Source: a virus
Strand: one strand, 5' to 3'
IMG/VR virus record: IMGVR_UViG_3300000553_000012
Location: 1 to 64,000 of that record
Length of the DNA: 64,000 nt
The notes beneath the pieces were generated by a model that saw only the letters and a list, made by a program, of their open reading frames with translations, was not told the DNA's origin and made no database searches. The number at the start of each line of letters is the position of its first letter. Within the stretch, counting starts at the first letter, position 1. This document shows positions 30,525 through 36,437 of this stretch, one piece after another. The translations under genes were made by a program, and so were the position numbers.

Positions 30525-31439
30525 TTATTCCGAAGCGAGCTTGCGAAAATATGCCATGTCATCGTCATCATCTTCAGTTTGCCAAGGAACGTCATCTTCC
30601 TCGACAACGGGAGACTTAGACCGAGATTCTCGCAATGGAATGGCCTCTGCGCGAGGAAGATCATCTTCATCTCGTCTATTGGCTGACTCTAGTCCTAATA
30701 CCGCATAAAGCTTCTTCTTTAGAGTATCATAATCCTTAAAATTCTTGACATCAAGAAACTCTTGAAGAGGATATTCAGACTTCCAAATCTTTTCTAGTTC
30801 ATCATCATCCTTTAATAAAGGACTCCTAGAATCAAATACGGACTTATCATAGTTTCGATAACCTTCAACATTTCGAATCTTAATCTTAAAGTTTGCGCCT
30901 TCCCAAAGATCAAATGGGTTTAAAGGATTTTCATCGGCAAATTGAGGATTCATTGCTTCATTAATCTTATCAAAAATCTTCTTACCATACTTAAAGATTT
31001 TTACCTTTCCTTCATTTTGAGGATTGGCTGGATCACTAATAACATAGATATTAGAAAAATAACTTAGCTTTCGCTTTTGATCTCTAGCCTGCTTACGCGC
31101 GGGAGAGTTATCATCTGTCGTAGAATTCCAAAGTTGTGAATTATATTCACTACAAGGATCTGGCTGATTAAGAGTTGTAAGTGAATTTTCAATATACCAA
31201 AGCCCTGTAGGACCCTTGAATCCATGATTCCATACTCGAACAAATGGCATATCTTCATTTGGAGGAGGCGGAAGGAATCTAATTACAGCATAACCATTTC
31301 CCGTCTTATCTACATCGGGATACCACATTCTTTCGTCTGTTGATGCTGGGGACTCATTGCTAGTGATCTTTTTAATTTGATCAGCAAGCTTATTTAGTTC
31401 ATTTGTACGATTGCGCTTTAATGTTGCAAAATCTACCAT
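30525..31439 (-). CDS. gp32: Single-stranded DNA-binding protein gp32
   Basis: A 304-residue homologue of T4 gp32 (301 aa). It has the basic N-terminal LAST-like segment (FATLKRNRTNELNKLADQIK), an OB-fold core (YAVIRFLPPPPNEDMPFVRV, LWYIENSLTTLN, YFSNIYVISDPANPQNEGKV) and an acidic C-terminal tail (VEEDDVPWQTEDDDDDMAYF) for partner binding. The core zinc-binding region retains only one cysteine (PDPCSEYN) where T4 has three Cys and one His, so zinc coordination seems lost. Codon use is less AT-biased than in neighbours, consistent with high expression. Followed by gp59 and gp33 in T4 order. Confidence 0.95.
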   Translation of the reverse strand: MVDFATLKRNRTNELNKLADQIKKITSNESPASTDERMWYPDVDKTGNGYAVIRFLPPPPNEDMPFVRVWNHGFKGPTGLWYIENSLTTLNQPDPCSEYNSQLWNSTTDDNSPARKQARDQKRKLSYFSNIYVISDPANPQNEGKVKIFKYGKKIFDKINEAMNPQFADENPLNPFDLWEGANFKIKIRNVEGYRNYDKSVFDSRSPLLKDDDELEKIWKSEYPLQEFLDVKNFKDYDTLKKKLYAVLGLESANRRDEDDLPRAEAIPLRESRSKSPVVEEDDVPWQTEDDDDDMAYFRKLASE

Positions 31440-31491: not shown

Positions 31492-32088
31492 TTATGCATT
31501 CTCATAGGATGCTTCAAAATGCTTTAAAGCAATTTTACGCATTTTAGAAATATCATAATCTAGAAATGAACGATACTTTTTAAAGATAATAAAAATATCT
31601 TTCCACAATGGATCGTCCTTCAATTTTTTATTCCATAGATCAAAATAATTTAAAAGATCATCTAATATAATGATGGTCTCTATTGATATCTTTTTTCTTA
31701 GAAATAACTTTAGCAGATGTGGATGCTGATTATTTTTAATATTAACATTATCGGAAATATTTGTCAATAGATTATTAAGGTCTTCTTGAAAATAATAACT
31801 AAGAGCTTGTCTTCTTTTATTCCATTCTATATATACTTTTTCGGTAGTAGAATTATTAATTAAATCACCTATCCAAATATTTGTTCCATTCTCTACAAAA
31901 TTAGCAATAAGAAAATCTTTTGGATTTTTATGTTTGGCTAATTTAGCAAAGAAAAACTTATCTTTACGAATCTCAAAGGCTTCTACATTAAGTTTCATTT
32001 TACCTTGATATTTTATGAAGTCATATTGTTCACGAGAAAAGTGTGCTTTGAGAGCAGAATATAATACATATGCTTCAAATGGAGTCAA
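31492..32088 (-). CDS. gp59: Helicase loader gp59
   Basis: A 198-residue protein matching T4 gp59 (217 aa), which loads the replicative helicase onto gp32-coated forked DNA. The N-terminus MTPFEAYVLYSALKAHFSRE, YDFIKYQGKMK is diagnostic. The rest is helical with a basic surface (LLKLFLRKKISIETIIILDD, KLKDDPLWKDIFIIFKKYRS). It overlaps gp33 by 4 nt and lies upstream of gp32 in the transcript. The helicase gp41 is outside the window. Confidence 0.9.
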   Translation of the reverse strand: MTPFEAYVLYSALKAHFSREQYDFIKYQGKMKLNVEAFEIRKDKFFFAKLAKHKNPKDFLIANFVENGTNIWIGDLINNSTTEKVYIEWNKRRQALSYYFQEDLNNLLTNISDNVNIKNNQHPHLLKLFLRKKISIETIIILDDLLNYFDLWNKKLKDDPLWKDIFIIFKKYRSFLDYDISKMRKIALKHFEASYENA

Positions 32089-32318
32089 ATTGGTAACCTT
32101 GAAACCTTTGGAATAAAATTTAAAACTTCTGCTTCAGATTGAACTTTTGATTTTAATTCGGCATTCATTTTAATTAATGATGCCGCAGTTTCAACTTCTA
32201 AATTATTTTTTTCACAATAAAGAATAACTGCATCAATATATTCAATATCATGTTTCCAAATCAATTCTTCAATTTCTGCCGCAAATTCTTTTGGCGATTT
32301 AATATTTAATTCTTTCAT
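32085..32318 (-). CDS. gp33: Late-transcription coactivator gp33
   Basis: A 77-residue gp33 homologue (T4 112 aa). In the T4 system gp33 links RNA polymerase to the sliding clamp at TATAAATA promoters. Here the pattern IEELIWKHDIEYIDAVILYC, EKNNLEVETAASLIKMNAEL matches the helical core of the cyanophage gp33 family. Position (gp33-gp59-gp32) is as in T4. Its presence agrees with the late promoter boxes seen across the window; the late sigma gp55 is not in this window. Confidence 0.8.
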   Translation of the reverse strand: MKELNIKSPKEFAAEIEELIWKHDIEYIDAVILYCEKNNLEVETAASLIKMNAELKSKVQSEAEVLNFIPKVSRLPI

Positions 32319-33007: not shown

Positions 33008-33232
33008 TTACCCGTTAGAAATAAAATTATTAAGACCAAGCGCCTTATTAATAATATCATGTTCTGTTGGATATCGAGGAAGTTTAGGCGCTTCTATAGA
33101 TGTATGATCTTGAACCACCGATATCTTATAACTCCATTCTTGTTCAATTAAACTTCTCTTTGAATGGTATTCTTCCATAAGAAGATCCTTGGCCATCTTA
33201 AGAAGTTCTAGTCTAATTAGATATGCATTCAT
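33008..33232 (-). CDS. Small conserved phage protein
   Basis: A 74-residue helical protein starting MNAYLIRLELLKMAKDLLME. I associate this N-terminus with a short protein common in T4-like phages of aquatic bacteria. The body continues KRSLIEQEWSYKISV and PRYPTEHDIINKALGLNNF. It starts just downstream of the tmRNA coding piece, with AGGA before the ATG. Function unknown. Confidence 0.6.
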   Translation of the reverse strand: MNAYLIRLELLKMAKDLLMEEYHSKRSLIEQEWSYKISVVQDHTSIEAPKLPRYPTEHDIINKALGLNNFISNG

Positions 33233-33259: not shown

Positions 33260-33556
33260 AAATTGGGTCCGTTCTGGTGCTAGGTGGAACCCATACCCCG
33301 GAAAACTTACGCGGCTAAGCGGGTCTCCATAATACCATTATCGTTGGCATTTACACGTTTCTTGCGGTTAAGGTCGCTCGCTCACCTATTCTCCACGCTT
33401 CTACTCATCGGCAATCGATACTAGTCGCCCCCGTCATGACTACACATAGCTGATAACTTTTGTACCCTCAGCCGCTGGCGCTTTATATGTAGTCATGGTG
33501 GAGGCGGGGAGATTTGCACTCCCGTGTTACCAAACTTTTGTTACGCTTCAACGAAT
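33260..33556 (-). ncRNA. ssrA: Circularly permuted two-piece tmRNA
   Basis: On the minus strand an acceptor piece comes first. Its T stem GGGAG/CTCCC (33523-33519/33511-33507) has a TGCAAAT loop. The 3' acceptor strand CGCCTCC (33506-33500), discriminator A and encoded CCA end at 33496. A linker closed by a 9-bp stem (33488-33496 with 33436-33444) leads to the coding piece, whose 5' strand GGGGGCG (33432-33426) pairs fully with CGCCTCC. The third pair is G-U, the alanine identity element. The tag frame 33348-33307 reads ANDNGIMETRLAA then TAA. Pseudoknot-like repeats follow. The outer ends given are estimates. Confidence 0.9.
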
Positions 33557-33561
33557 ATTTT

Positions 33562-33569
33562 TATTTATA
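33562..33569 (-). promoter_or_regulatory. T4-type late promoter box before the tmRNA
   Basis: An exact TATAAATA on the minus strand, starting at the base after the preceding gene's stop codon. A start about six bases downstream (~33556) would place the tmRNA acceptor piece at the very 5' end of the transcript. This suggests the tmRNA is made late, by phage-modified polymerase. Confidence 0.6.
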
Positions 33570-35876: not shown

Positions 35877-36437
35877 ATGAAGTCACTATTTTTTAGTGTA
35901 GCCGCGGCGGCTATTTTAGTTGCAGCAACAGCATCGGTGGCCGGTACTCTTACTGGCGAAGTTCGCATTGGCGATATTGATGGTAATCCCGGATCGACAG
36001 AATATCGCGTCGATTATGGAGATACGTATCATAATGTAGTAATGTATGGCGGAGAAATCGCCGTAAAGCAAAACCAAAATGAAGGCGGTCTTAGTTCTAA
36101 GATTGTTGGTCGTGTCGGGCCAGTTCTTCCAGTAGTACTTGGCTTTGAACCAAAGGTCTATGGTGAATTTGGTGAATCTGTTTCTCAAGGTAATAATACC
36201 GAGTTTTGGGGTACATATGCTGGAGTAAGTCATCCGGTCTATGGTCCAGTTTCGGTAAACGTTGGATACCGACATCGTGAAGGCCTGCGACAAGATGTTT
36301 CTTTTAACGAAAATCGTCTAAGTACAGGTCTTACATATAATCTAGGTAAGAGCAACACTCTTGGTGTAGAGTATTATCGAACGAGTGGTACTACAACATC
36401 GGATGTCATTGGTATTTCCGCATCGCATAGTTTCTAA
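35877..36437 (+). CDS. Exported outer-membrane-type beta-barrel protein
   Basis: A 186-residue protein with a clean signal peptide (MKSLFFSVAAAAILVAATAS, cleavage near VAG). Eight or so alternating strands follow (GEVRIGDIDG, EYRVDYGDTYHNVVMYGGEI, YGPVSVNVGYRHREG, NRLSTGLTYNLG, NTLGVEYYRTSG). It ends in SASHSF, the terminal Phe typical of outer-membrane proteins. It is a lone plus-strand gene with its own strong promoter and terminator. A role in altering the infected cell surface, such as superinfection exclusion, is plausible but unproven. Confidence 0.75.
   Translation: MKSLFFSVAAAAILVAATASVAGTLTGEVRIGDIDGNPGSTEYRVDYGDTYHNVVMYGGEIAVKQNQNEGGLSSKIVGRVGPVLPVVLGFEPKVYGEFGESVSQGNNTEFWGTYAGVSHPVYGPVSVNVGYRHREGLRQDVSFNENRLSTGLTYNLGKSNTLGVEYYRTSGTTTSDVIGISASHSF

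Follow-up and report, generated by a model that had tools for sequence, protein, structure and literature searches.

A circularly permuted alpha-type tmRNA gene upstream of gp33-gp59-gp32 in a T4-like phage, and its probable modularity among relatives

The locus described here raises the question of whether a T4-like phage carries a complete and working tmRNA gene of its own, split into two permuted pieces, and what such a gene would contribute to infection. The DNA analyzed is a stretch of 64,000 nucleotides (the window), which belongs to a 96,389-bp linear IMG/VR virus record. A preliminary description had read a complete permuted tmRNA here, with the acceptor piece 5' of the coding piece, without giving the strand. 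The minus strand of the window, at positions 33557-33262, holds a complete circularly permuted (two-piece) tmRNA gene (ssrA).

Identity and anatomy of the gene

Covariance searches with Infernal and Rfam 15 gave two matches at the locus, to permuted tmRNA models, and these are the sole Rfam matches across the 64-kb window. RF04321 (tmRNA_permuted) matches positions 33557-33307(-) with 85.8 bits (gathering threshold 47, E 5e-15), a score below those of most relatives, and RF01849 (alpha_tmRNA) matches 33623-33262(-) with 59.1 bits (gathering threshold 50). Both matches span the full models, which bears out the permuted order, the completeness and, through RF01849, the alpha type that had been proposed. 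The covariance model E-value, the folding z-score of −2.5 and the covariation among relatives place the locus beyond chance. An ARAGORN scan of the window reported no gene and thus missed the tmRNA; we reject this as a sign of absence. The non-canonical G at position 55 of the T loop may help explain the miss, although some relatives with G55 were found by ARAGORN. A blastn search against phage records returned only a 58-bp match, in the Sinorhizobium phage Phosso, as the RNA is too diverged for a DNA-level search. The features of the gene and its surroundings, all on the minus strand, are as follows, with their basis in brackets.

33562..33569, minus strand: T4-type late promoter consensus TATAAATA, adjoining the stop codon that ends the upstream ORF (motif, offset in L102 and L104)
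33263..33557, minus strand: permuted tmRNA precursor, comprising acceptor piece, intervening loop and coding piece (RF04321, RF01849, fold)
33496..33557, minus strand: acceptor piece (sequence, covariance model alignment, T stem and acceptor covariation in 24 relatives)
33433..33495, minus strand: intervening segment of 63 nt, expected to be removed by tRNA-type processing (fold)
33402..33432, minus strand: 5' end of the coding piece, with acceptor GGGGGCG, D loop and P2 3' strand (sequence, fold)
33307..33348, minus strand: tag reading frame ANDNGIMETRLAA, resume codon GCC, stop TAA (translation)
33262..33306, minus strand: 3' end of the coding piece, with alpha-type element GGGTTCCACCTAGCACCAGAACGGACCC and a predicted 7-bp hairpin (RF01849 match to model end, fold)
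33008..33232, minus strand: 74-aa ORF directly downstream of the tmRNA, without family match
32085..32318, minus strand: gp33-like late-transcription coactivator (PF16805 7.8e-16, phrog_254 1.6e-14)
31492..32088, minus strand: gp59-like DNA helicase loader (phrog_269 5.1e-51)
30525..31439, minus strand: gp32-like single-strand DNA binding protein (phrog_224 7.4e-111)

The acceptor piece consists, in order, of the 5' P2 strand UAUUCGUUG, the T arm GGGAG-UGCAAAU-CUCCC, the 3' acceptor CGCCUCC, A73 and an encoded CCA. The acceptor strands GGGGGCG and CGCCTCC form 7 bp with a G-U at the third position (G3.U70), followed by the discriminator A73 and CCA, just as the preliminary description had stated. 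Its claim of an intact T arm stands for the stem (GGGAG/CTCCC) and not for the loop, which is TGCAAAT and departs from the canonical TTCRANY in having G at position 55. The D loop, ACTAGTATCGA (A18-G19), written ACUAGUAUCGA in strand reading, is followed by the P2 partner CGAUGAGUA, which the minimum free energy fold pairs with UAUUCGUUG. Unconstrained folding yields P2 (9 pairs), the T stem, the 7-bp acceptor stem, a 14-bp intervening stem and the 7-bp 3' hairpin, with a z-score of −2.5, and for the pseudoknot 5' of the tag there are candidate pairings, AGGU/ACCU and GCG/CGC, assigned by eye.

The stem of 9 bp that had been thought to close the precursor loop was an underestimate, since in the unconstrained fold the ends of the intervening segment form a 14-bp stem (CAUGACUACAUAUA/UAUGUGUAGUCAUG) with one G-U, which includes the last two bases (CA) of the CCA. 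According to a study of RNase P, the catalytic complex is inhibited from forming when the leader pairs with the 3' RCCA (PMC9433436), so a stem that takes in part of the CCA could slow or order the processing of this precursor.

The tag frame, GCC AAC GAT AAT GGT ATT ATG GAG ACC CGC TTA GCC GCG TAA, translates as ANDNGIMETRLAA followed by the stop, which agrees with the 13 codons, ANDN start and LAA end noted earlier, and both an alanine resume codon and a hydrophobic AA end are present. A pattern of the first ten residues was absent from the bacterial genomes of an 84,980-species collection and was found in only one other viral contig, whose gp32 is identical. The tags of relatives vary strongly; they are open frames and most end in LAA, with some ending in MAA, VAA, IAA or MVA. 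A pattern for the acceptor piece occurred in three metagenome-assembled genomes of the collection, each with a one-piece RF00023 tmRNA; because these are one-piece, the likeness in T arm and acceptor is shared or convergent, and we reject them as the donor. A pattern for the precursor loop itself was found in none of the viral contigs searched.

Carrier phage, conserved position and known relatives

The tmRNA gene lies upstream of gp33-gp59-gp32 on the same strand, and the phrog and PF16805 matches of these three genes uphold the assignment of the carrier to the T4-like phages. Further T4-like genes include ribonucleotide reductase, thymidylate synthase, primase, baseplate and tail genes, and the record beyond the window holds DNA polymerase, sliding clamp, clamp loader, SbcCD-like gp46/47 and UvsX families. 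The phage also carries five tRNAs. No integrase was found among the genes scanned, and no SmpB gene in the 96-kb record, which is possibly a fragment, or in nine tmRNA-bearing relatives, all of them possibly partial. The closest cultured relatives by gp32, at about 50-55% identity, are Stenotrophomonas phage DLP_6, cyanophages, Melnitz, HTVC008M and Sinorhizobium phage phiN3. As a separate observation, an ORF at window positions 35877-36437(+) is porin-like (PF13609, barely over the cut-off) with a signal-peptide-like start, an unusual cargo for a phage, and has TATAAATA 86 nt upstream.

The position of the gene is conserved. When 80 IMG/VR contigs with gp32 relatives were taken, among the matches listed, RF04321 matched above its cut-off in 48, and in the 47 loci where the cassette was located it lies upstream of gp32 and on its strand, at a distance of 1.25-4.0 kb with a median of 2.4 kb. 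Loci of this kind (here numbered with the prefix L) include L084-L134, which like Pelagibacter phage HTVC008M have the tmRNA near gp33/gp32 as in the window; these loci, HTVC008M and DLP_6 all match RF04321 as the window does but have other acceptor, T-loop/D-loop and tag modules. One contig of the numbered set, L137, encodes a glucosyltransferase of the HMC-glucosyltransferase family and a methyltransferase (L137:5583-6533(+) and L137:11115-11789(+)), which may point to modified phage DNA.

The tmRNAs of mycobacteriophages (the Bxz1 group and Wildcat) and of Bacillus phage G are one-piece molecules, and they belong to phage groups other than the T4-like phages. That these phages encode tmRNA has been described (PMC4131195). 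Among 18,146 phage genomes surveyed in 2022 there were 53 two-piece tmRNAs, of which aquatic phages account for 50, and in Melnitz ssrA lies directly upstream of the late-transcription coactivator (PMC9004378); RF04321 itself was published in 2025 with a database of 79 phage tmRNA sequences (PMC11915505). Two-piece tmRNAs of aquatic phages and the same synteny have thus been known since 2022 (PMC9004378), so that the present gene adds to a known kind and its novelty had been overrated. Melnitz (MZ577097) is like the window in having an alpha-type permuted ssrA that matches RF04321 and RF01849, in being T4-like, in its G55/A18 class and in the order ssrA-gp33-gp59-gp32. It is unlike the window in its tag, ANDNYVPVDYALAA, in a glutamine riboswitch (RF01739) beside ssrA, of which Rfam found none in the window, and in a promoter inferred by its authors to be early (PMC9004378), where the window has a late-promoter consensus. 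The alphaproteobacterial tmRNAs of RF01849 share with the window the gene order, acceptor, A18/G55 loops, resume region and 3' ACCUgGCAaCAGAA element, whereas the window's gene is phage-borne and has a shorter 3' region and a tag absent from the bacterial genomes scanned.

Several further permuted tmRNAs came to light that are unannotated in phage isolates. Jumbo Sinorhizobium phage Phosso has an alpha-type gene at PV764938.1 349596-350198(-) (L083:2407-3009) with a 410-nt intervening segment and the tag ANDNVSTKVALAA, DLP_6 has one at KU682439.2 102838-103059(+) (136.8 bits, tag ANDDSFAPMAIAA) beside tRNA genes, and HTVC008M has a match at KC465899.1 145161-145370(+) (90.6 bits) upstream of the late promoter transcription factor gene. 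A 177-kb IMG/VR contig carries a beta-type permuted tmRNA (L151:10442-10817, RF01850, 132.7 bits), which means that alpha and beta types both occur in phages.

Covariation, coupled loops and cassette swaps

The T stem and acceptor stem of 24 distinct cassettes from relatives could be aligned without gaps. All 288 helix cells are paired, a percentage that is partly by construction because the cassettes, whose sequences are related, were chosen by best stem pairing. The double changes at fixed positions, by which 7 of the 12 pairs are altered on both sides, are not by construction, nor is the invariance of G3.U70 and CCA; G1-C72, G2-C71 and the discriminator A are likewise invariant in the 24 relatives. 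The covariation score is 0.539, as compared with a shuffled mean of 0.117 and with 0.03-0.13 when the partners are slid by 1-3 columns. Covariation of the GGGGGCG/CGCCTCC pairing in related phages, on which the preliminary description had let its reading depend, is thus present, and it extends to the T stem.

The unusual T loop of the window (33512-33518) has a counterpart in the D loop (33415-33425), G55 occurring there together with A18. Across 33 distinct cassettes, U55 goes with GG in 10 of 10 and G55 with AG in 23 of 23, a count of 33/33 that ignores shared ancestry; 21 of the G55/AG cassettes have the AG at a fixed distance from TCGA, and the other two, shifted by insertions, were assigned by eye. 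The isolates are consistent with this coupling (DLP_6 is U55/GG, Melnitz and Phosso are G55/AG), and the consensus of RF01849 has the G55/AG form and that of RF04321 the U55/GG form. This pattern suggests that G55 is a compensated variant and that the elbow would be able to form. In a limited search of the literature we found no mention of the coupling.

The T arm, 3' acceptor, intervening loop, 5' acceptor and D loop together make up a tRNA-like cassette, and relatives that are otherwise alike can differ in it. In L093 and L092 the coding side is identical over more than 150 nt and the upstream region is 96-100% identical, and yet the whole cassette differs, from a border shortly 5' of the T stem to a point midway through the D loop, with CGCCTCC/GGGGGCG and a 4-nt intervening segment (TTGC) in the one and CATCTCC/GGGGATG and 94 nt in the other. 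A scan for a coding 38-mer common to both found 12 contigs, ten with one cassette and two with the other. A second shared coding 26-mer recovered 14 contigs (L147-L159 and L071) with a near-identical 30-nt P2 strand and coding-piece start; their cassettes are of nine or ten kinds and their tags of six. The intervening segment in other cassettes ranges from 4 to 410 nt. A sharp-bordered difference in the cassette, with the coding piece and flanks alike, was noted not only for L092 and L093 (tmRNA from 1501 onwards) but also for L139 and L015 versus L004, L138 and L140-L146.

Since several cassettes recur across metagenomes, chimeric assembly is unlikely to lie behind the swaps. The permuted order makes the tRNA-like domain contiguous, so homologous recombination within the flanking P2 and TCGACAGG sequences, which are conserved, could exchange it whole. 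We consider it probable that the permuted ssrA of T4-like phages is modular, with the tRNA-like cassette swapped independently of the tag and the elbow existing in two compensated forms. Either recombination alone or selection, for escape from a host nuclease or for fit to the host SmpB, may account for the swaps. The gene in the window resembles L104 (gp32 81% identical) in its upstream region and promoter and L102 in its 3' element, which is near-identical there (GGACCC to GGGCCC), and it may be part of the same mosaic, on weaker evidence than L092 and L093 provide.

Expression, proposed function and biological meaning

The late-promoter consensus TATAAATA lies 12 nt before the start of the covariance model match, and it has the same offset (−12) in L102 and L104. 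By the T4 convention transcription would start at about 33556, which we take to be the 5' end of the tmRNA. The count of TATAAATA in the window is not above Markov background, with about ten per strand expected by chance in such AT-rich DNA, so it is position and conservation that speak for the promoter, and the tmRNA is perhaps transcribed late from it. Some other T4-like phage tmRNAs have a sigma70-type TTGACA/TATAAT promoter in place of TATAAATA; a clear or near match to it stands at the same place in L117, L120, L121, L126, L128, L129 and L131, and hence timing may differ between phages.

In the course of events that we propose, established tmRNA biology serves as the model for processing, for charging, for the need of SmpB, for tagging, for timing and for what the phage gains. 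The minus-strand transcript, probably made from the late promoter, would fold so that the acceptor and P2 helices unite both halves, and host RNase P and 3' tRNA processing would excise the 63-nt segment, so that an acceptor RNA and a coding RNA remain, joined through the acceptor stem and P2. The molecule would be charged by host AlaRS by way of G3.U70, and with host SmpB and EF-Tu it would enter ribosomes stuck on broken or nonstop mRNAs, whose build-up is to be expected in lytic infection. ANDNGIMETRLAA would then be added, the ribosome freed for phage translation and the fragment marked for ClpXP-type proteolysis. The phage would likely benefit because ribosomes that stall on broken mRNA while infection proceeds are rescued and the fragments degraded, and viral control of rescue and tagging, as first suggested, is plausible. 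The anatomy of the RNA makes it hard to doubt that it would act as a tmRNA if transcribed, and we hold it very probable that the locus is a functional phage-encoded alpha-type permuted (two-piece) tmRNA.

Two other roles have been weighed against this. The RNA might be a decoy that ties up SmpB or the charging machinery and thereby weakens trans-translation in the host, for which mycobacteriophage DS6A offers a parallel, as it has little beyond the tRNA-like domain and a molecule of that sort is a strong inhibitor of tmRNA (PMC4131195, PMC11915505); the predicted intervening stem, which pairs part of the CCA and could slow processing, would fit as well. A decoy needs no tag, however, and here as in the relatives the tag frame, the resume region and the LAA end are intact and G3.U70 is invariant. 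With the tag kept, a decoy role becomes less likely, and we judge it improbable. Alternatively, phage-specific tagging could be the main function and rescue secondary, the tag altering how the host protease handles its substrates through changed degradation or selective recycling of host proteins. The strong differences between tags of relatives and their endings other than LAA would accord with this, and selective tagging of host proteins has been proposed for Melnitz (PMC9004378), but the window's own tag keeps ANDN and LAA like ordinary bacterial tags and variation of tags is usual among bacteria too, and we judge it improbable that tagging is the chief role.

It could also be argued that the gene is a passenger without function, a fragment of host ssrA captured through transduction or imprecise excision, or that the contig is contaminated with bacterial DNA, because ssrA is a known integration site and fragments of it occur in prophages (PMC9004378). 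We give this very little credence, as the position is conserved in tens of related phages, the helices carry compensatory changes, the promoter motif is shared, T4-like genes lie on both sides, the scanned genes include no integrase and none of the bacterial genomes scanned has this tag. The reading we prefer, a working tmRNA of the phage itself, is built on what was observed here, namely sequence, structure, covariation, conserved position and a promoter motif common to two relatives.

The example described here was missed by a standard gene finder, and surveys that rely on ARAGORN will undercount permuted tmRNA genes. The natural cassette swaps are ready-made pairs for asking which half of a tmRNA fits which host. 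Permuted tmRNA genes are common in T4-like phages and conserved in position, and hence controlling ribosome rescue probably belongs to the regular course of infection by these phages.
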